NCBI GenBank assembly: GCA_905233285.1
Contig: CAJODY010000026.1
Location: forward strand, 1-39,063
From: an uncultured Bacteroidaceae bacterium
GTDB lineage: Bacteria; Bacteroidota; Bacteroidia; Bacteroidales; Bacteroidaceae
DNA length: 39,063 nucleotides
Direction: 5' to 3'
Below the pieces are notes generated by a model. That model did no database searches. It was not told the origin of the DNA and was given only the letters and a program-made list of their open reading frames with translations. Positions 10,201 through 39,063 of the stretch are shown here, piece by piece. Position 1 is the stretch's first letter. Each line of letters opens with the position of its first letter. The position numbers and the translations under genes were made by a program.

Positions 10201-11595
10201 TTAATAAGCATTTTTGTCTCTCTTGAAGATGGTCTTGACAGTCATCCATATGATGCGGATGTCGAGCCAGAGGCTCCAATGCTGGGTGTACCAGATGTCG
10301 CGCTCAACTCGACCTTCCATCTGCCACAGTTCACGGGTTTCACCGCGGAAACCAGTTACCTGCGCCCAGCCGGTGATGCCGGGTTTGACGAAGTGGCGCA
10401 CCATGTACTTATCTATCAGTTTGTCGTATTGCTCCGTATGAGCTAGCATGTGAGGGCGGGGACCCACAATGCTCATGTTTCCAATCAACACGTTCCAGAA
10501 TTGAGGCAGTTCGTCAATGTTGGTCTTACGCATGAAATCACCAAAGGGGAATTTGCGCGGGTCGTCCTTGGTGGCCTGCAGACGGTCGGCATCGCTATTA
10601 ACATGCATGGAGCGGAACTTATAGCAGTAGAAATCGTGGCCGTCAATTCCAGTGCGCAACTGGCGGAAGAATACCGGTCCCGGGCTTTGACGTTTTATAA
10701 TCAGCACGATGAACGGCAGCAGCAGTGCTGTGGGTATCAGGCACAGGATGGATAAGACGATGTCCGACAGTCGTTTTAACAGTCTGTTCATCGGCTCTTC
10801 CAACGGACTGGTGTAGGTGGTCATCACGCCGATGTCATCGATGAGAGTCGGCTGCAGATTCAATTTTTCCTCTGCCGTCGGCAAATAGTAGAACTTCACC
10901 ATGCTGTGATCGCATAGGCGTACGGTCTGCTCTATCATTTCGCGCTCCTTGTGCGAAACACACAAATAGAGTTCTTCGCCCAATGGTAGATCTTCCGGGT
11001 GGGACAGCAACGATTCGAAGTCTTTGACACTTCCGTTATGGCTCAGACCCTCGATTTCACCGTAGATGTTACGAATCTTATAGCCATATGTGGAATTACT
11101 TGTGAGTTTCTTATATAAATTCAGAAGTTCTTTGTCCGATCCGACAAGTGTTACGTAACGTGTATTGTAGCCCGACTGTCTGAGTTCCTTCACTAACCAT
11201 CGTTCTAAGAATCGCAGTAGGATGAGAATCGCCAGCATAACAAGACCCATGACAAACAGATACACTCCCACACGGGAGATGAAGCGAATGGAGCGCAACA
11301 TCAGATACGAGAGCAGCGTCTGCATCCCTACGAGCATTGTGCAGCGACGCAGTATGGCATTGGCACCCACCATACGTTCATGAATAACCGACGGGAAGCA
11401 ATACTCCGCAATGATGAAAGCAAAGATGCAAATCATCCAAAAGGCCCCTTCCTTCTCTCCGTCCCAGTTCTTTGACGCGGGAATGGCATTAGTCAAGATG
11501 TAGAGCAGGCCGCACAGCACCGCAAAGTCCACCGCAATTATAAGTAGCTGTATAAGTCTGTTTGTCTGGTTATCGTTCTTTATTCGTATTTGCAT
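10201..11595 (-). CDS. Polyprenyl-phosphate glycosyl-1-phosphate transferase (WbaP/WcaJ type)
   Basis: This 464-residue enzyme starts repeat-unit synthesis by transferring a sugar-1-phosphate from a UDP-sugar to undecaprenyl phosphate. The N-terminal part has four membrane spans (roughly residues 12-32, 45-62, 78-105, 115-140), followed by a CoA-binding-like Rossmann region (YVTLVGSDKELLNLYKKL). The C-terminal catalytic domain (about 265-460) has one hydrophobic re-entrant helix, PGPVFFRQLRTG, YKFRSM, NIDELPQFWNVLIGNMSIVG, PRPH and KPGITGWAQV, all diagnostic of the family. Its base composition is balanced, unlike the next genes. It begins 3 bp after the upxY stop, so it is co-transcribed with upxY. 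Bacteroidota members are usually annotated as glucose transferases, but the sugar is not proven. Confidence 0.93.
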   Translation of the reverse strand: MQIRIKNDNQTNRLIQLLIIAVDFAVLCGLLYILTNAIPASKNWDGEKEGAFWMICIFAFIIAEYCFPSVIHERMVGANAILRRCTMLVGMQTLLSYLMLRSIRFISRVGVYLFVMGLVMLAILILLRFLERWLVKELRQSGYNTRYVTLVGSDKELLNLYKKLTSNSTYGYKIRNIYGEIEGLSHNGSVKDFESLLSHPEDLPLGEELYLCVSHKEREMIEQTVRLCDHSMVKFYYLPTAEEKLNLQPTLIDDIGVMTTYTSPLEEPMNRLLKRLSDIVLSILCLIPTALLLPFIVLIIKRQSPGPVFFRQLRTGIDGHDFYCYKFRSMHVNSDADRLQATKDDPRKFPFGDFMRKTNIDELPQFWNVLIGNMSIVGPRPHMLAHTEQYDKLIDKYMVRHFVKPGITGWAQVTGFRGETRELWQMEGRVERDIWYTQHWSLWLDIRIIWMTVKTIFKRDKNAY

Positions 11596-11598
11596 TGT

Positions 11599-12276
11599 TC
11601 AATCTGTATTAATTGGCATTATAAAGGCTGTTGGTATATAGGCTGTTGAAATGAGTCCGATGCTGGACAAAGAAAGAACCACTCTCTGCTGACCTGCCAC
11701 ACGGGCAACCCTCCCTTCGACTCCTTTGAAGAGGCCTTCTATCACCCTGACCGTCTCGCCGCCCTTGTAATGGCACTGCGATTCATCCACAAACTTCAGA
11801 TGCTCACTCATGTTAGATGTAGCAATGATGAAGTTCTCCATTTCATTGCAGGATATGGTCAATGGAGGGTTCTTTCCCATTTCGTCTTGGACAAAATGAT
11901 TGTAATAATAGGTAAGAAATGATAAAGCCGGCGTATGTTTTACGTACTCCTCGGCTTTGTCCTCTGTGGTATATACGAAAAGAAGGTTTGGGAGCAATTT
12001 CTCCAAAACTTTCTTTTGCTTTCCATTTACTATTTTGCGTGCATAGCGCTTGGCGATATAGACATACGTACCCTCTTCCACGATGTAGTCCGCAGCCTGA
12101 TCTTCTCTTCCATACGAGGCTCTAAAAACATACCAACTTTTACTAGGGTTATATACATACCTTACCGACACCCCTGTTTTCGAGCTTTTCGTTTCGGGGA
12201 AGGCATCAAGGGTAAACCTGACGCTAGGAGGATCTGACTCGCCTCTTCGAGTTGTCACATTAGACAATGTGGCCAT
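11599..12276 (-). CDS. UpxY-family transcription antiterminator (NusG paralogue)
   Basis: A NusG-like protein of about 225 residues. The NGN domain begins at KSWYVFRASYGREDQAADYI and continues through YVYIAKRYARKIVNGKQKKV and EKLLPNLLFVYT. The C-terminal KOW segment is GGETVRVIEGLFKGVEGRVA. In Bacteroides, UpxY proteins let RNA polymerase pass termination sites in the leader of their own capsule operon, and being the first gene fits that role. The frame is open to ATG 12420, but I prefer ATG 12276. A -33/-7 promoter (TTG, 20 bp, TATCTTTG) lies at 12325-12295, inside the longer reading, and the added N-terminus is polar and unlike the family. No UpxZ gene follows; the sugar transferase starts 3 bp after the stop. 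Confidence 0.88.
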   Translation of the reverse strand: MATLSNVTTRRGESDPPSVRFTLDAFPETKSSKTGVSVRYVYNPSKSWYVFRASYGREDQAADYIVEEGTYVYIAKRYARKIVNGKQKKVLEKLLPNLLFVYTTEDKAEEYVKHTPALSFLTYYYNHFVQDEMGKNPPLTISCNEMENFIIATSNMSEHLKFVDESQCHYKGGETVRVIEGLFKGVEGRVARVAGQQRVVLSLSSIGLISTAYIPTAFIMPINTD

Positions 12277-12294
12277 TATTTCGTTAATCAGCTG

Positions 12295-12325
12295 CAAAGA
12301 TACTGCTTTTTTGTAGCACGAGCAA
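12295..12325 (-). promoter_or_regulatory. Predicted promoter of the upxY polysaccharide operon
   Basis: On the minus strand, TTG (12325-12323), exactly 20 bp, then TATCTTTG (12302-12295). This matches the Bacteroidota primary sigma consensus TTTG-N19-21-TAnnTTTG. Transcription would start near 12288, leaving a leader of about 12 nt before ATG 12276. No inverted repeats suitable for a phase-variable invertible promoter flank it within the visible sequence. Confidence 0.55.
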
Positions 12326-12428
12326 CGGCTTGTAGCGAGAAAATTATGCCGATCATTGTTTTTTTGTTGTCCACCGCTTAGTTGCCGCAAGTTTGCCTCT
12401 TCGTGATACGTCGGGCGCATGGTGAAAA

Positions 12429-12507
12429 TTCCAAGCGCTTGGAAATAAAATTCTAAGCGCTTGGAATTTAATTTCTAAGCGCTTAGAAGTTGAGAGCGGC
12501 TGGGACG
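12429..12507 (+). repeat. 79-bp palindrome-triplet element, copy 1
   Basis: Three 16-bp palindromes of form TTCYAAGCGCTTRGAA lie at 12429-12444 (perfect), 12451-12466 (one mismatched pair) and 12473-12488 (perfect). They repeat at an exact 22-bp step with AT-rich 6-bp spacers. After 8 bp comes CGGCTGGGACG (12497-12507). Copy 2 at 37077-37155 has the same order, spacing and total length. This copy lies between divergent genes, 5' of both upxY and the GH43 gene, so it cannot be simply a terminator. The function is unknown. Confidence 0.9.
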
Positions 12508-12580
12508 TGGTGTGAGGATAGGGGAAAAGAAAAATACTTTCTTTTTCGCCACAAGGTTTTATCAGTACGAATAAAATATG

Positions 12581-12625: not shown

Positions 12626-14041
12626 ATGAAAAGGATTGAAATTCTCATTTTATGTGTTATGTTGGCTGTGACAACAACGGCTGGAGTTAAGGCTGATGGC
12701 AAGTCGGAAGGAGAGTGGACGACAATCAGAAACGGACAAGTGTGGCTTACTGCCGAGGGCGATACGGTGCAGGCTCATGCCCCAGGATTCGTGCTTGTAG
12801 ATGGGGTGTGGTATATGTGCGGAGAGGATCGTGCGAATACCTGGCGGCCAGATGTAAATTTGTATAGCAGTCGTGACTTAGTGAACTGGAAGTTCGAGAA
12901 GAAGATAATCGAGAATGGGGTGACGACAAAGGAACTGGGCAGGAGCCGTATGATTGAACGTCCGAAGTTGCTGTATAACCCGAAGACGGGGAAGTATGTG
13001 GTATGGTGCCATTACGAGTCGCGCAATTACGGAGCGTCGGAGGCTGCATGCTTTGAGAGCGACAAGGTGAATGGTGAATATAAATATGTGTGGAGCGGCA
13101 GGCCGCTCGGGGTGAAGAGTCGCGACTGCAATGTTTTTCAGGATAAGGAGGGAACGGCTTATTTCATTTCAACTACGGAGGAGAACCAGCACTTGGGACT
13201 GTTCCGACTGAGTGAGGATTACCACGAGGCTGTGGAGCATACTGAGATTTTCAGTCATCAGCGCAGGGAGGCTCCAGCCATAGTGAGACTGGGCGATACG
13301 TATTTCATGTTTAGTTCGGCTTGTACGGGATGGGATCCTAACCAATGCAAACTGTCGTACAGCAACGACTTGCGTCAGGGATGGACTCCGTTGGAGAATA
13401 TAGGCAATAACATCGCTTTCGATACTCAGGCGGCTGCCATTCTGGAGGTAAGGGGTACGAAGACGACAACATACTTGTATGTGGGTGACCGCTGGCAAGA
13501 CCCAGGGCTGCCAGACACGAAGACTATCATCTTTCCGATTGAGTTTGAAGGCGAGAAGTGTAAGTTTGAATATCACGAAAGGTTCGATATAAATTTCACC
13601 ACAGGCGAATGGCGTGAGACTCCTACCGACGGATTGTTTGTCGATAAGAGCGGTTGGAAAGTTGTGGAGAGCAGTGGCGAAGCAGAGGGAAGGGGCGCCG
13701 GCAGGAACGTCATCGACGGCGACAAGACTACGGCATGGTTCTCGCGTCAGGGAGAAGAGGGTGAAGCTCTGCACTTCATTCAGATAGACGTGGGTAGAAA
13801 GCAGAAGATACGTGGTCTGTTGCTTACTCCAAATCTGCAGGCTGGTGGTCGCGGACTGGTACGCGATTATGAGTTTCTGGTGAGTGCGGATGGCAAGGAG
13901 TGGACTGTGGCAAGCAGTGGCAGATGGATGCCATACTATACGGAGGTTGATTTCGAAGCGCAGGAGTGCCGATACTTCAAACTAGTGTGCAAGAGGAGTC
14001 GTTTTGTGTCTGTGGCAGAAATTGATGTGATGAAAGAATGA
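12626..14041 (+). CDS. Secreted GH43 glycosidase (galactanase-like) with C-terminal CBM32
   Basis: A 471-residue exported enzyme. Residues 1-23 form a signal peptide (ILILCVMLAVTTTAG). Residues about 35-330 match the GH43 subfamily close to exo-beta-1,3-galactanases: TVQAHAPGFVLVDGVWYMCG, MIERPKLLYNPKTGKY (E111), REAPAIVRLGDTYFMF (E215), TGWDPNQ, FDTQAAAIL (Q268) and YLYVGDRW. In the characterised fungal relative the catalytic set is two Glu and a Gln acting as base, and the same three types are in place here. Residues about 341-470 form an F5/8 type C (CBM32) beta-sandwich (NVIDGDKTTAWFS to AEIDVMKE). It probably trims galactose-containing glycans in the periplasm or at the surface. No SusC/SusD pair is in view, so it is a stand-alone enzyme here. 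Confidence 0.85.
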   Translation: MKRIEILILCVMLAVTTTAGVKADGKSEGEWTTIRNGQVWLTAEGDTVQAHAPGFVLVDGVWYMCGEDRANTWRPDVNLYSSRDLVNWKFEKKIIENGVTTKELGRSRMIERPKLLYNPKTGKYVVWCHYESRNYGASEAACFESDKVNGEYKYVWSGRPLGVKSRDCNVFQDKEGTAYFISTTEENQHLGLFRLSEDYHEAVEHTEIFSHQRREAPAIVRLGDTYFMFSSACTGWDPNQCKLSYSNDLRQGWTPLENIGNNIAFDTQAAAILEVRGTKTTTYLYVGDRWQDPGLPDTKTIIFPIEFEGEKCKFEYHERFDINFTTGEWRETPTDGLFVDKSGWKVVESSGEAEGRGAGRNVIDGDKTTAWFSRQGEEGEALHFIQIDVGRKQKIRGLLLTPNLQAGGRGLVRDYEFLVSADGKEWTVASSGRWMPYYTEVDFEAQECRYFKLVCKRSRFVSVAEIDVMKE

Positions 14042-22675: not shown

Positions 22676-23022
22676 CGAAAAGCACTTGTGCTATAAGCCG
22701 GGTTCTGTAGCTAGTCGGTGACCAACTGTTCGTCATTTATCTACGACACATGTCACCATGTGCCTCAAGCGTTCTACCCTCTGCCTTGGGCGGGCTACCC
22801 TCATAACGGCAGCTCCTAAGATGCACAGCCAACGTGTCACCACGCTGCTGGTGGGCTTTTACCCCACCTTCTCACCCTTACCCCGAAGGGCGGTTATTTT
22901 CTTCTGCGTTACTCAACCCTCACGGACTGCTTCTACGTTAGGAAGTAGGATGCCCTGTGCTGCCCGGACTTTCCTCTTTCGGCACGAATGCCGTCAGCGA
23001 CGAACCGCACAACTGCCTTTCG
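22676..23022 (-). ncRNA. rnpB: RNase P RNA, bacterial type A
   Basis: The minus strand shows the universally conserved core: GAGGAAAGTCCGGGC with CAGCACAGGGC after it near the 5' end, and AGAACCCGGCTTATAG near the 3' end. Helix P1 pairs the strand beginning CGAAAGGCAGTTGTGC at 23022 with the strand ending GCACAAGTGCTTTTCG at 22676, 16 positions with one mismatch and one G-U pair. A TACCTTTG -7 element ends 6 nt before the predicted 5' end. This RNA is the catalytic subunit that trims tRNA 5' leaders. The exact ends are estimated from P1. Confidence 0.96.
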
Positions 23023-35284: not shown

Positions 35285-36595
35285 TTATTTATGGTTTTGG
35301 TTGAACATCTCGATTCTTTCTTTGAAAATCGGCTCCAGTTCCCTGCTGAAGAACGAAGTACAGATTCTGACGCCCTGTTCCAGACTGCCCATAGTGTCGA
35401 GCGGGAAGACGGCGATGCCGTAGTACATCAGTTCGCGAGTCAGTTCGAGGTCATTCATGCCCGGATACTGTACTGTGAAGTAGAATCCGTCGGCAAGCGG
35501 AGCTCCGAGGTCGTTGTCATAGACGAGGTAGAAGCCGTTGGCGAGCAGAACATCCTTCATGAACTTCGCACGACGTCCGTATTCGCGTACGTCGGCAAGG
35601 AAGTTGTATTTTCCGTCGCATGCTGCCTCCATAAGCGCTGCCATAGCGTGTTGCACGCTGTGGGTCGTACCACTCGAAAGGGTGTACATCAGGCGGTTGC
35701 AGAAGAAGTTTCCGAATTCACCCACTCCGAAGTTCTTTTCGAGTGCAGGATAAACCCTGTGGTAGAGTTTGTTGCTTATGCAAGCCACACCGATACGCTG
35801 TCCTGCGTATGAGAAAGCTTTCGAACCCGATACAGCCAGGATGTAATTGTCTGTATAATGTGCTATAGTAGCTTGGAAAGGAGCCTCGAACGGATGACTG
35901 AGGTCGCGACGGAAGTCCATAGCAAAGTAAGCAAGGTCTTCCAGCACGATGCAGTCGTACTTGTTCACGAGTTTGGCAATGCCTTTCAGTTCCTCGTCCT
36001 TGAAGCAAACCCACGACGGGTTGTTCGGATTGGAATAGACGATACCACAGATATTGTTCTGCGAAAGGATTTCGTCCAGTTTCTTCACGAGTGCCTCGCC
36101 ACGATAGTCGTGGATGTCGAGACCTATGTGTTTCAGTCCGATGACGTCGCATTGCGTAGTCTGCACGGGGAATCCGGGATGGATGAACAGAACGGTGTCC
36201 TTCTCAGGCATAGCGTGGTGCCAAGCCGTGAACGTAGCGAAGGTGCCCTGCATCGAACCTGTCGTCGGGATGCAGCAGAGCGGATCGACATCCACATCTA
36301 TAAATGCCTTTGCGAAGCGTGATGCTGCCTGCTTGATGCGAGGAATGCCGCCGTTGGGAGGGTATATCGTAGCACAACCTTCAGCCAGAGCCTTCTTCTC
36401 GGCTTCGATGGCGATGTCCGACGGCTTCAAGCCTGGCACACCCATCTCAAGGTGAATAACCGTCTGTCCTGTCTTCTCTTCCAATACCTTCGACAACGAC
36501 TGAATGTCGCGAATCGTTGCCTGTGAAAAGTCGCCTAAAGCCATCTCGTTGATGGCACTTGTCACCGTCTCGAAATCTAATGGAGTATTTTTCAT
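35285..36595 (-). CDS. PLP-dependent aminotransferase, class I/II
   Basis: A fold type I aminotransferase of about 436 residues. Features are PPNGGIPRIKQAASRFAKAF, the PLP-stacking region TTGSMQGTFATFTAW, FIHPGFPVQTTQCDVIGL, IVYSNPNNPSWVCF (conserved Asn), VLEDLAYFAMDF (Asp and Tyr contacting PLP) and the Schiff-base Lys in AVSGSKAFSYAGQRIGVA. I chose ATG 36595. The -7 element at 36630-36623 puts the transcript start near 36616, inside the longer frame, and the extra N-terminus is not family-like. It leads the operon with SDR, permease, RNA methyltransferase and aryl-CoA genes. Aromatic amino acids are a reasonable but unproven substrate. Confidence 0.92.
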   Translation of the reverse strand: MKNTPLDFETVTSAINEMALGDFSQATIRDIQSLSKVLEEKTGQTVIHLEMGVPGLKPSDIAIEAEKKALAEGCATIYPPNGGIPRIKQAASRFAKAFIDVDVDPLCCIPTTGSMQGTFATFTAWHHAMPEKDTVLFIHPGFPVQTTQCDVIGLKHIGLDIHDYRGEALVKKLDEILSQNNICGIVYSNPNNPSWVCFKDEELKGIAKLVNKYDCIVLEDLAYFAMDFRRDLSHPFEAPFQATIAHYTDNYILAVSGSKAFSYAGQRIGVACISNKLYHRVYPALEKNFGVGEFGNFFCNRLMYTLSSGTTHSVQHAMAALMEAACDGKYNFLADVREYGRRAKFMKDVLLANGFYLVYDNDLGAPLADGFYFTVQYPGMNDLELTRELMYYGIAVFPLDTMGSLEQGVRICTSFFSRELEPIFKERIEMFNQNHK

Positions 36596-36620
36596 ATCTT
36601 CTGTTCTTACAAAATTTCCT

Positions 36621-36660
36621 TGCAAAGGTACAATATAAAAATGAAAAGCGTACCTTTGCA
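36621..36660. promoter_or_regulatory. Divergent promoter pair, inverted repeat of -7 elements
   Basis: TGCAAAGGTA (36621-36630) and TACCTTTGCA (36651-36660) form a perfect 10-bp inverted repeat separated by 20 bp. Read outward, each contains TACCTTTG, the -7 consensus, directed to the aminotransferase (ATG 36595) and to the DUF486 gene (ATG 36679). Clear -33 elements at standard spacing are not visible. Both elements decide the starts of the genes they face. Confidence 0.6.
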
Positions 36661-36678
36661 GCGCCAAAAAATCAATAT

Positions 36679-37047
36679 ATGAACGGAATATATACTGTGG
36701 TGCTGCTTATCGGCAGCAACATATTCATGACCCTCGCATGGTACGGACACCTGAAACTGCAGCAGATGCACGTCAGCGACAGCTGGCCTCTCATCGCCGT
36801 AATCATCTTTTCGTGGGCAATCGCTTTCTTCGAATATTCGCTTCAGGTACCTGCCAATAAGATTGGTTTCATCGGCAATGGCGGTCCCTTTACCCTTGTT
36901 CAGCTCAAGGTCATCCAAGAGGTCATATCCCTTACCGTCTTCACCGCTATTGCCGGTATGATGTTCCAAGGTGAGCAACTCCATTGGAACCATTTCGCAG
37001 CTTTTCTCTGTCTTATTGCTGCCGTCTGGCTCGTATTTCTCAAGTAA
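36679..37047 (+). CDS. DMT-superfamily DUF486 small membrane protein
   Basis: A 122-residue protein with four transmembrane helices. Family landmarks are VVLLIGSNIFMTLAWYGHLK, IFSWAIAFFEYSLQVPANKI, QLKVIQEVISLTVFTAIAGM and the C-terminal WNHFAAFLCLIAAVWLVFLK. DUF486 proteins are half-size drug/metabolite transporter relatives that probably dimerise in the inner membrane; their substrate is unknown. An in-frame start exists at 36559, but the promoter element at 36651-36658 and the conserved MNGIYTVVLL N-terminus fix the start at 36679. It is a single-gene unit ending at a repeat/terminator. Confidence 0.9.
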   Translation: MNGIYTVVLLIGSNIFMTLAWYGHLKLQQMHVSDSWPLIAVIIFSWAIAFFEYSLQVPANKIGFIGNGGPFTLVQLKVIQEVISLTVFTAIAGMMFQGEQLHWNHFAAFLCLIAAVWLVFLK

Positions 37048-37076
37048 GAAAAAATGGCTCGCCCTTCGCGTTGAAT

Positions 37077-37155
37077 TTCCAAGCGCTTAGAAATAAAATT
37101 CCAAGCGCTTGGAAATAAAATTCTAAGCGCTTGGAATTTCAGCACGGCTGGGACG
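37077..37155 (+). repeat. 79-bp palindrome-triplet element, copy 2
   Basis: Palindromes of TTCYAAGCGCTTRGAA lie at 37077-37092, 37099-37114 (perfect) and 37121-37136, again at an exact 22-bp step, with ATAAAA spacers. CGGCTGGGACG follows at 37145-37155, 8 bp after the last palindrome as in copy 1. Orientation is the same as copy 1. This copy lies between two convergent genes. Confidence 0.9.
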
Positions 37156-37165
37156 CCGTTTTTTT
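37144..37165 (+). terminator. Intrinsic terminator of the DUF486 gene
   Basis: The stem ACGGC (37144-37148) and GCCGT (37155-37159), loop TGGGAC, runs directly into seven T (37159-37165). It reuses the conserved tail of the palindrome element. In copy 1 the same tail is not followed by a matching arm or T-run, so the terminator is specific to this copy. Confidence 0.65.
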
Positions 37166-37182
37166 GATGTATTGAACCCGAC

Positions 37183-38498
37183 TTATTTCCAGTCCGTAAG
37201 GATAGTTCTCTTGTCGAGCACGTGCTTTGCCTTGCCCGTCGAACGCTCGATGTTGCCCGGCTCCTTGATATGGATGTTAGGCTTGATGCCTACCATACTT
37301 ACGATGCGGTCGTAGAGCGGTTTGATGAATGGCATCTGCTTGGCAGGGTTCGGTGAGAAGTATTCGGTACGCAGTTCGACGTCGAGGTCGAATGTGTCTT
37401 CGTTGTTCTTGCGGTCCACCGTGATGAAATACTGTGGGGTGAAGACCGGGAACTCCGTCAGTATGGTCTCTATCTGAGATGGGAATACGTTCACACCACG
37501 GATGATGAGCATATCGTCGCTTCGACCCAGAATCTTTCCGAGACGTACTGTCGTACGACCACATTCGCAAGGCTCGTAGTGAGGTGGGTAAGGTCGCGAG
37601 TACGATAGCGGAGTATAGGCATAGCCTCCTTGCAGAGGGAGGTGAATACCAACTCGCCCTCTTCGCCTGGTGCTACGGGTTCGAGTGTTTCAGGATTGAT
37701 GATTTCCGGATAGAACATATCCTCAGCTACGTGTGTGCCGTTCTGGAAAAGACATTCGCCGCCCACGCCCGGACCACACATCTCAGTCAGTCCGTAGATG
37801 TCGATTGCCTTTAAGTGCAGTTTCTTTTCCAATTCGCGGCGGATGCCCCAAGTCCAAGGTTCGGCTCCGAAGAATCCGACTCTCAGTTTCAGGTCTTCAG
37901 CCTTGATGTCGGGACTCTGTTCTATCACCTCAGCCAGATGCAGGGCGTAGGAAGGAGTACAGCAGAGAGCAGTAGTGCCGAAGTCCTTCATCAGCATGAT
38001 TTGCTTCTTTGAGTTTCCTGCTGAGATGGGCAACTGAACGGCTCCACGTGCCATTGCTCCGTCATGAGCTCCGAGTCCTCCGGTGAAGAGTCCGTAGCCG
38101 TATGCAACCTGAACGATATCACCTGGACCTACGTCGCCGACAGCAAAAACTCGTGCCACGCACTCAGCCCACATCTTCAGGTCGTTCTCGGTATAAGTGC
38201 CGACAACGGGTTTGCCTGTAGTACCGGAAGAGGCGTGAATTCGACGGATTTCACTCTGTGGAACAGCCTGCAGACCGAACGGATACTCGTCGCGCAGGTC
38301 GTGCTTCGTTGTGAAAGGCAGCTTGTAGATGTCTTCGATGCCATGAATATCCTCGGGTCTTACACCCATGTGGTCCATCTTCTTCTTGTAGAACGGAACC
38401 TTCTCGTAGCATCGCTTTACAGTCTTGACCAGACGTTCAGACTGTAGTTTTCGCATGGATTCTCTGTCCATGCACTCCATTTCGGGATTGTGAATCAT
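37183..38498 (-). pseudogene. paaK: Phenylacetate--CoA ligase, second copy, frameshifted
   Basis: A full-length PaaK-family gene (about 438 codons) split by one frameshift. The first part, from ATG 38498, has RIHASSGTTGKPVVGTY (AMP-binding loop), VAYGYGLFTGGLGAHDG, IYGLTEMCGPGVGGEC and ILRYRTRDLTHLT. The reading then shifts. From about 37580 the next frame continues YEPCECGRTTVRLGKILGRS, IIRGVNVFPSQIETILTEF and the C-terminal domain to the stop at 37183. Adding one base near 37577-37582 would restore LTHLTYEPCECGRT, so a single-base deletion (real or a sequencing error) explains it. It differs clearly from the intact copy at 30738, so it is a paralogue and not a recent duplicate. It follows iorB by 28 bp. 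If the shift is real, the adenylating C-terminal domain is lost. Confidence 0.88.
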
Positions 38499-38526
38499 AG
38501 TAGTTATTAATGTATTTATGGGGGTT

Positions 38527-39063
38527 CTACTTCTTGCTTGCTTCCACACCCATGTCGAATGCCTTCAGGTTGGCTTCTACCACAGCCTCACCTTTGCGTG
38601 CAAAGATGACGGAGATGGCTTTGCGCAACTGTTCGACGCTGAGAATCTCGATGAATGGGGCAGCCATACCCAGCAGAACCATGTTGGCTCCGCGTGCGTT
38701 GCCTGCGTCCTTGGCTACACTCTCGATGTCGAGCTGAACGACAGAAGGCATACTTGCGAGTTCTGCCATAAGTGCGGTTTCATCGGGGTAATCGGGTATG
38801 TTTACGAATGGTTTGTTGCTCGTAACAATAGTGCCTGTCTTAGCAAGATAAGGCAGAATTCCATCGGTTCCATAGAGATGACTACGTCGGCTCCACCGAG
38901 GGAAATGAGGTCGGAATAGATGGGTTCGGTAGAGAGACGCAGGTTCGACTGTACGTCGCCGCCGCGCTGACTCATTCCGTGTACTTCTGCCTGTTTCAGG
39001 TTGATGCCAGCCTCTGTGGCTGCTTCGCCTATGATGGTAGCGATGGAGAGGATGCCTTGTCCG
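38527..39063 (-). pseudogene. iorB: Indolepyruvate ferredoxin oxidoreductase beta subunit, partial and frameshifted
   Basis: The C-terminal part of an IorB/POR-gamma-type protein, open at the window edge. The first frame reads GQGILSIATIIGEAATEAGI, AEVHGMSQRGGDVQSNLRLS (the conserved HGMSQRGG motif) and GADVVISMEPME, then goes out of frame to a stop at 38804-38802. Another frame resumes at about 38860 with ILPYLAKTGTIVTSNKPFVN and runs through MVLLGMAAPFIEILSVEQL to the stop at 38527. Homologues have MEPMEALRYLPYL here, so about 10 bases may be missing near 38858-38863. IorAB oxidises aryl-pyruvates to aryl-acetyl-CoA with ferredoxin. It sits directly before the broken paaK, and iorA would be expected beyond the window. 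Assembly error remains possible. Confidence 0.8.

Follow-up and report, generated by a model that had tools for sequence, protein, structure and literature searches.

The window that we analyzed, a 39,063-nucleotide stretch of DNA from an uncultured Bacteroidaceae bacterium, holds two copies of a dispersed, mostly intergenic and exactly phased array of palindromes, in which both the palindromic core and the 22-bp step show signs of constraint and whose step recurs with other motifs in related genomes. From the anatomy of these arrays we infer that they are docking sites for a dimeric, sequence-specific DNA-binding protein that binds cooperatively along one helix face and has a chromosome-scale role, a reading to which we assign a probability of about one in two.

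Both copies that the initial annotation had described are present in the window, in a common orientation (Table 1). Each copy contains the 16-mer TTCYAAGCGCTTRGAA three times at exact 22-bp steps, and the 11-mer CGGCTGGGACG begins 8 bp past the last 16-mer in both. At a tolerance of up to 3 mismatches, 8 palindrome matches occur in the window, compared to 0.43 expected in shuffles; 6 of the 8 are exact and fall in the two arrays, and the remaining 2 carry 3 mismatches. The right-hand end of copy 1 is nearest to the end of an array on contig C27 of the source genome (L021), and its left-hand end resembles, by eye, the opposite end of the same array. Copy 2 is flanked on both outer sides by T-runs when its ends are read outward.

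Table 1. Positions of the array copies, their ends, and the neighboring genes in the window.
Feature	Position	Strand	Remark
Sugar transferase gene adjoining the NusG-domain ORF	10201-11595		
Copy 1 flanking ORF, NusG domain	11599..12420	-	Called start 8 bp from the array
Copy 1 left-hand end	12407..12428	-	TTTTCACCATGCGCCCGACGTA read outward; unclassed
Copy 1 palindrome 1	12429..12444	.	TTCCAAGCGCTTGGAA
Copy 1 palindrome 2	12451..12466	.	TTCTAAGCGCTTGGAA
Copy 1 palindrome 3	12473..12488	.	TTCTAAGCGCTTAGAA
Copy 1 right-hand end	12489..12509	+	Class C; CGGCTGGGACG at 12497-12507
Copy 1 flanking ORF, glycosyl hydrolase 43 and F5/8 type C domain	12626..14041	+	
Copy 2 flanking ORF, DMT_6 (DUF486) membrane protein	36559..37047	+	
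Copy 2 left-hand end	37056..37076	-	ATTCAACGCGAAGGGCGAGCC read outward; differs in the orthologous element of G001 (L173)
Copy 2 palindrome 1	37077..37092	.	TTCCAAGCGCTTAGAA
Copy 2 palindrome 2	37099..37114	.	TTCCAAGCGCTTGGAA
Copy 2 palindrome 3	37121..37136	.	TTCTAAGCGCTTGGAA
Copy 2 right-hand end	37137..37157	+	Class A variant; CGGCTGGGACG at 37145-37155, then a T-run
Copy 2 flanking ORF, AMP-binding enzyme C-terminal domain	37183..37512	-	

The gene context was also as first described, with copy 1 between divergent ORFs and copy 2 between convergent ORFs, the latter copy being overlapped by a spurious 82-codon ORF. The called start of the NusG-domain ORF beside copy 1 may lie too far upstream. 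Next to copy 2, the N- and C-terminal domains of an AMP-binding enzyme are spread over two overlapping ORFs in different frames (37183-38549), which looks like a frameshift or an assembly error. At gathering scores, the sole Rfam match in the window was a bacterial RNase P RNA of class A on the minus strand (22678-23016), away from the arrays.

The exact palindrome occurs 29 times in the source genome (G000; 110 contigs, 2.55 Mb, 89.9% complete), distributed over 13 arrays or loci and 12 contigs, and the reversed-pattern control gave no match. With 13 arrays or loci in this genome and the step kept in relatives, the possibility that only the two window copies exist and that no relative shares their phasing does not hold. 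When units were counted at up to 3 mismatches, eight of the G000 arrays had three units, three had two, and two had one, and all 19 spacings were 22 bp. The sister species G001 (RUG11924) carries 22 arrays and 40 exact palindromes; 21 loci contain an exact palindrome and one further array (C3:61377) contains none. There, too, every spacing was 22 bp (40 of 40), and 20 of 21 arrays had three units. Given the existence of single-unit arrays (L021 and L023) and of arrays with cut units (L169 and L170), the arrays can decay. Seven of the 13 arrays in G000 lie no more than about 600 bp from a contig end, where by our own arithmetic about 5% of the bases fall (C10, C11, C14, C40, C45, C51, and C80, corresponding to L016, L017, L018, L022, L023, L024, and L026); these may mark assembly forks or strain rearrangements.

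The 11-mer had been taken for a fixed tail, and this part of the description did not survive the census. A query joining the last half-palindrome to CGGCTGGGACG at up to 3 mismatches matches at 10 arrays and is exact in 3, and the outer ends vary in both G000 and G001. Of the 70 outward-read ends in these two genomes, 59 match one of three class strings (TTTCAGCGCGGCAGGCGCACC, TTTGAGAGCGGCAGGGACGTG, and TTTTGACGCCCCTTCGCTGCC) in at least 12 of 21 letters, a loose threshold applied to strings derived from the same data. The other 11 fit no class, at least 2 of them coming from a chance hit. Paired by element (36 entries, including at least one chance hit), the ends are A-B in 9, A-C in 9, A-A in 5, and B-C in 1, with an unclassed or missing end in 12. 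Shared ends of this kind were not evident by eye in G277 or G273. Paralogues within G001 align over approximately 100 to 115 bp, some of them across longer duplicated stretches, and in G000 an alignment over 100 bp was found for a single pair of array loci. The arrays of the window's own lineage look like copies of an element of about 100 to 115 bp with related ends, and dispersal by copying would account for their spread there.

Comparison of the fetched stretches placed four arrays at matching positions in G000 and G001 (copy 2 with L173, L016 with L166, L020 with L177, and L024 with L176), and a fifth shared array (L017 with L179) is supported through one flank only. Two other G000 loci, L025 and L021, partly align with G001 array loci, the arrays being at different places. 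Around copy 2 the two species share 94% identity over 4 kb, with the array kept and one end different. In L173, a short local palindrome, GACGCAGAAGCGTC, takes the place of the end found at window positions 37056-37076, a change that could have arisen by template switching. Some arrays (L023, L168, and L179) lack the usual end and directly adjoin another repeat, similar to AAATGCGAGTAAGCGAGAGCAGAAAAAGTTTACTT. A hairpin-like repeat, as judged by eye, stands at the copy 2 site in at least 11 of the 28 other members of the genus compared (L208-L235), and across the other genus members this site is too diverged or rearranged for an empty-site comparison. At the one locus examined that is occupied in G000 and free of an array in G001 (L019), we saw no clean empty site or target duplication, because gene order differs in G001.

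The motif itself is narrowly distributed. Among 150 genomes, including the source, the exact palindrome occurred in three, namely G000, G001, and a lone match in G093. Of the 45 genomes of the genus, G000 and G001 carry the array and the other 43 do not. The looser motif YAAGNNCTTR at a 22-bp step, searched in 399 Bacteroidaceae genomes, matched 20. G000 gave 19 pairs and G001 gave 41; in genus g19, G277 gave 346, G062 gave 55, G238 (Red_deer_4_mag_139) gave 41, and G183 gave 12; in genus g30, G332 gave 13, and G188 and G217 gave 2 each. G464 and G376 also gave 2 each, and eight other genomes had one pair each, as chance could give. The 11 pairs in G451 are, by eye, a conserved 22-bp direct repeat. 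This repeat, CAAGGTCTTATCGCAGAAAGAG, is near perfect and has a conserved spacer (C1 133236-133311 and other places), and may be another kind of repeat. In the order, the pattern YAAGYRCTTR at 22 bp was found in 2 of 295 genomes, G000 and a lone pair in G602. Given these genus, family, and order searches, the YAAG-CTTR motif family appears to be confined to the Bacteroidaceae as sampled. A plasmid or phage source was considered and rejected: copy 1 had no match in the plasmid collection, and the five viral contigs with the loose pattern show single pairs and no longer arrays in the excerpts printed. In a wider contig scan, many of the listed matches outside Bacteroidales look like single terminator-like palindromes. 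In Streptococcus (L034, L048, L061, L074, L088, and others), an inverted repeat that contains TTCAGACTGAAGACAAAG and is conserved recurs next to promoter-like sequence, often near contig ends, and is perhaps an rRNA operon leader.

The step is kept outside the window's lineage, with 38 of 39 spacings at 22 bp in a first sample of G277 and 35 of 35 in G273 (17 arrays among those listed). Three units is the commonest array size in G000, G001, and G273; the 17 G273 arrays among those listed comprise 12 with three units, 3 with four, and 2 with two, and the 15 arrays of the first G277 sample include 7 with four and 6 with three. Spacers in both genomes are near random, and cores and step are kept: the 12 spacer columns of G273 carry 0.1 to 1.1 bits among the arrays listed, the core letters being fixed by the search, and four central spacer columns of G277 carry 0.2 to 0.5 bits. 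Outside arrays, single YAAGYRCTTR cores number 7 in the 302 kb of the first G277 sample, compared to about 4.6 estimated at equal base use. No skipped internal unit was found in arrays with at least two exact cores in G277, G000, G001, or G238, with steps of 44 or 66 allowed. At some array ends of G277 (7 of 52, with 5 of 5 inner matches), the next unit survives only as its inward half, compared to a rate of about 1% at places picked at random.

Changes at the Y/R position of the palindrome had been described as often compensating, a claim that the counts do not bear out: 16 of 30 G000 palindromes are Watson-Crick there (Fisher p, 0.71). Co-variation between the arms at this position was not seen in G238 (p, 0.50) or in G277 (p, 0.06, in the opposite direction), where arm position -2 showed a weak trend towards pairing (p, 0.13). 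A significant compensating trend was found in G001 (Fisher p, 0.005), in which the elements seem to have been copied from one another. In the G273 arrays listed, 13 of 52 and 21 of 52 of the positions that directly flank the core are Watson-Crick. Given that the outer arms mostly lack co-variation, hairpins are unlikely and binding by a dimer is likely; on balance, the arms seem to be independent half-sites that a protein dimer would read on double-stranded DNA. Selection on symmetry and phasing, which the initial annotation had suggested, is supported, as arrays with the same step and other motifs exist in relatives.

Some of these other arrays came to light through a search designed as a control. 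The reversed pattern of YAAGNNCTTR gave many matches in some genomes, and searching it directly in 12 of these showed palindromes of their own, so the reversed pattern is not an independent control. G273 has ATTC-RY-GAAT at 22 bp in 109 pairs, five g9 genomes have GTTC-NN-GAAC pairs, and the matches in G038 and G201 look like direct repeats. In a sequence-agnostic scan, G183, G047, and G054 showed further palindromes arrayed at 22 bp, and G191 showed one such array of the GTTC-GAAC kind; the 22-bp arrays of G238 and G259 were weaker, and odd palindromes formed 21-bp arrays in G005 and G277. The array of G005, a member of the window's genus, lies downstream of the same gene that stands next to window copy 2. 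G277 and G183 each have more than one array family. The second family of G277 has a 21-bp step and AAATTTAASTTAAATTT-like units (L279 11869, L284 7870, and L285 5830). In 592 kb of this genome there are three 21-bp TTAASTTAA arrays, and CTCAAAA...TTTTGAG borders two of the three as printed.

Over periods of 18 to 27, the agnostic scan gave 38 matches at 22 bp, 5 at 21 bp, and none at other periods or after shuffling, in a set in which many loci had been fetched for holding arrays and some several times. Over periods of 15 to 35, fresh stretches also gave 18, 23, 27, 29, and 32, which by eye are mostly short-unit or perfect repeats, and the G277 matches at 21, 28, and 35 include apparent multiples of a 7-bp repeat. 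A 22-bp array was present in 2 of 15 fresh stretches within the family (L332 and L335) and in 0 of 5 outside it. Three of 19 stretches chosen largely from earlier hits had one, that of L305 and weak ones in L308 and L320, and the repeat at 21 in L312 is of the short-unit kind. Among the 99 other loci of the wider contig scan and the viral contigs (741 kb, mostly other phyla), from which 20 array-bearing loci had been left out beforehand, there were no arrays at 21 or 22 bp and one at 20 bp. Exact 21-bp pairs of the G005 kind numbered 5 in 5 of the 45 genus genomes, one of them AT-rich, against 40 pairs in 13 of 45 for the reversed control. This control is not independent either, because the reversed pattern matches the 21-bp array itself in L209, and the search says little about how common that family is. 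A rule by which even palindromes step at 22 bp and odd ones at 21 bp fits most families and was rejected, being broken by L245 and L308 (odd, 22) and L329 (odd, 23).

As judged with a simple ORF caller, the arrays lie mostly between genes and in every gene orientation, near the background mix. The 28 arrays scored in G277 comprise 14 in tandem, 5 in divergent, and 4 in convergent gaps and 5 inside ORFs, compared to 77 tandem, 27 divergent, and 29 convergent background gaps. Among the 17 G273 arrays listed, 2 are inside ORFs of at least 200 codons and 4 are in convergent gaps. Overall, 15 of 81 array rows (two arrays being listed twice) overlap a called ORF of 71 to 840 codons. Overlaps with long ORFs fall mostly in the first 40 codons (L016, L166, L191, and L398), where the ORF may have been called from too early a start; the exceptions are L290 (codons 85-105 of 485) and L400 (codons 638-658 of 675). 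In the tandem gaps of G277, G001, and G000, arrays lie near the upstream stop codon, with a mean relative position of 0.25 when negative distances are set to 0 (n, 23). This bias is weaker when the 100 bp before starts is excluded (P, 0.02 in the three genomes and 0.11 with the other g19 genomes), and it was not evident among the listed arrays of G273, which lie about as far from stops as from starts.

The neighboring genes have little in common. Pfam searches of two sets of 43 and 78 flanking proteins (taken from 49 and 82 listed, with orthologous and some long or doubtful proteins omitted and two window ORFs added) found no family common to more than two, and no transposase family recurred among the scanned neighbors. 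We accordingly rejected a parent gene carried beside the arrays, for which no recurrent Pfam family was seen. Along the contigs, the listed G273 arrays are more evenly spaced than random, with a minimum interval of 13.6 kb (P, 0.002 for the minimum and 0.011 for the coefficient of variation). The tendency is weak in G277 (P, 0.03 and 0.07), and the three intervals in G001 are too few to tell (P, 0.10 and 0.18). This test was chosen after the data had been seen, it used 10 and 16 intervals among the arrays listed, and its null allows places inside genes.

The main rival to a docking array is a MITE-like element, in which the array would be the inside of a small non-autonomous transposon, the palindromes would be binding sites for a transposase acting in trans, and each species would have families of its own. 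We consider this rather unlikely as the explanation for the arrays as a whole. The related outer ends of the G000 and G001 copies support it, as do the alignments among G001 paralogues over about 100 to 115 bp and in some cases further, the patchy distribution, and the coexistence of several array families in G277 and in G183. BrickBuilt of Porphyromonas, moreover, has been described as a MITE whose interior holds a 23-nt tandem repeat (PMC4596501). It is weakened by the random spacers of G273 and G277, where copies share neither spacers nor, by eye, outer ends, yet keep cores and phasing intact, unlike dead copies. Nor is there a recurrent transposase family among the scanned neighbors, or a clean empty site or target duplication at L019, the gene order there differing in G001. 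The docking and MITE-like readings may be compatible, in that a protein-docking array could have spread by copying.

Three further explanations seem to us improbable to differing degrees. The placement of tandem-gap arrays close to the preceding stop codon in G277, G001, and G000, together with the hairpin-like repeat at the copy 2 site in at least 11 of 28 genus members (by eye), would suit a transcription roadblock or bidirectional insulator, in which bound arrays halt RNA polymerase between genes in the manner of phage stoperators. That role is improbable, given that the bias becomes weaker when promoter space is left out and that G273 shows no clear sign of it. Intrinsic-terminator-like sites (a GC-rich hairpin plus a T-run) are, in G277, equally rare at gene ends with arrays (1 of 17) and without them (15 of 155), and an intrinsic terminator was rejected on the same counts. 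Helically phased sets of palindromes are a typical feature of cooperative repressors, and the arrays could on this ground be operators of a global transcription regulator near its target promoters. Convergent gaps, which are without an ordinary promoter, bear arrays about as often as the background, however, and for this reason we disfavor a promoter or operator set; the flanking genes are also functionally unrelated, and we hold this alternative to be quite improbable. A hairpin acting as RNA or single-stranded DNA, whether REP/REPIN-like or RNA stabilizing, is highly improbable. The arrays are, like the REP families, palindromic, extragenic, lineage specific, and multicopy, and the compensating trend in G001 (p, 0.005) points the same way, but the outer arm positions lack co-variation in G000, G238, and G273, and the exact 22-bp step would have no obvious reason. 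Within the list of candidates offered by the initial annotation, then, a protein array on one helix face stands as the best reading, whereas the REP-like hairpin is disfavored for want of co-variation in most outer arms. No evidence for an attachment site came up in the course of the motif, end, and neighbor analyses.

In the docking-array reading, each palindrome would hold one dimer of a putative DNA-binding protein, and the exact 22-bp step would set several dimers, most often three, on one helix face, allowing them to bind cooperatively. Given that the arrays are mostly intergenic, occur in every gene orientation, have unrelated neighbors, and tend to even spacing in two genomes, the complex would most likely act on a chromosome scale, as an address or anchor for nucleoid organization or segregation rather than at single promoters. 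The candidate protein and its sites probably co-evolve, since the recognized sequence differs between species and the geometry stays. Chromosome-organizing proteins usually keep their sites across a genus; in contrast, and as a point against this reading, this array motif is found in 2 of 45 genus species. More tentatively, the arrays could belong to a Bacteroidaceae chromosome-addressing system, in which a fast-evolving dimeric protein would sit over three or more palindromes spaced at two helix turns, the geometry being fixed from genus to genus and the sequence swapped between species. Such a system might occupy from about a dozen to perhaps more than 100 intergenic places and be caught in an arms race or in co-evolution with its own sites.

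If a protein does bind the arrays, gut and rumen Bacteroidaceae would have a chromosome-scale system whose sites can be recognized by geometry alone, and each species would gain a readable set of chromosomal addresses. The turnover of the motif between close species at constant spacing would then be a clean natural case of protein-site co-evolution. If the arrays are instead a mobile element, selection or copying preserves helical phasing across unrelated families. Under either reading, the arrays are a direct bait for the candidate protein.

We found no phased palindrome arrays in the Bacteroidetes repeat literature as covered by titles and the starts of abstracts (few subscription journals and no bioRxiv preprints), which is weak evidence of novelty. 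The Noc/NBS, SlmA/SBS, and MatP/matS systems consist of tens of scattered short palindromes that are bound by protein and not tied to promoters, and our arrays resemble them as many dispersed palindromic sites without a promoter link. Noc, SlmA, and MatP sites are single and conserved across relatives, whereas ours are phased arrays of lineage-specific sequence with a putative protein. REP/REPIN families with RAYT are species-specific extragenic palindromes in many copies, sometimes with several families per genome; the arrays differ from these in their strict 22-bp step and in lacking hairpin co-variation, both in G273 and, for the Y/R position, in three of the four genomes analyzed. Nearest to the arrays among described repeats are PINSR and BrickBuilt. 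PINSR of Prevotella intermedia has a 188-bp unit, 177 and 184 copies in two strains, and no terminal inverted repeats, as far as the published description extends (PMC4755523). Like the arrays it is intergenic, and it is described as amplified in one Prevotella sublineage and most likely non-coding; unlike them, it has no phased palindrome array reported in that description (PMC4755523). BrickBuilt of P. gingivalis is an intergenic minisatellite-containing MITE described as present in 19 copies in ATCC 33277, with elements of 84 to 991 nt, 1 to 22.8 abutting units, and IS5-like terminal repeats (PMC4596501). BrickBuilt and the arrays are both intergenic and lineage specific in Bacteroidales, and both have leader and tail ends and an internal repeat whose period, 23 nt in BrickBuilt (PMC4596501), is near two turns of the helix. 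They differ in that BrickBuilt units lack spacers (PMC4596501), whereas our arrays consist of 1 to 7 palindromes at a 22-bp step with short spacers. Also unlike BrickBuilt as described, the array motif differs from one species to the next and the geometry stays.
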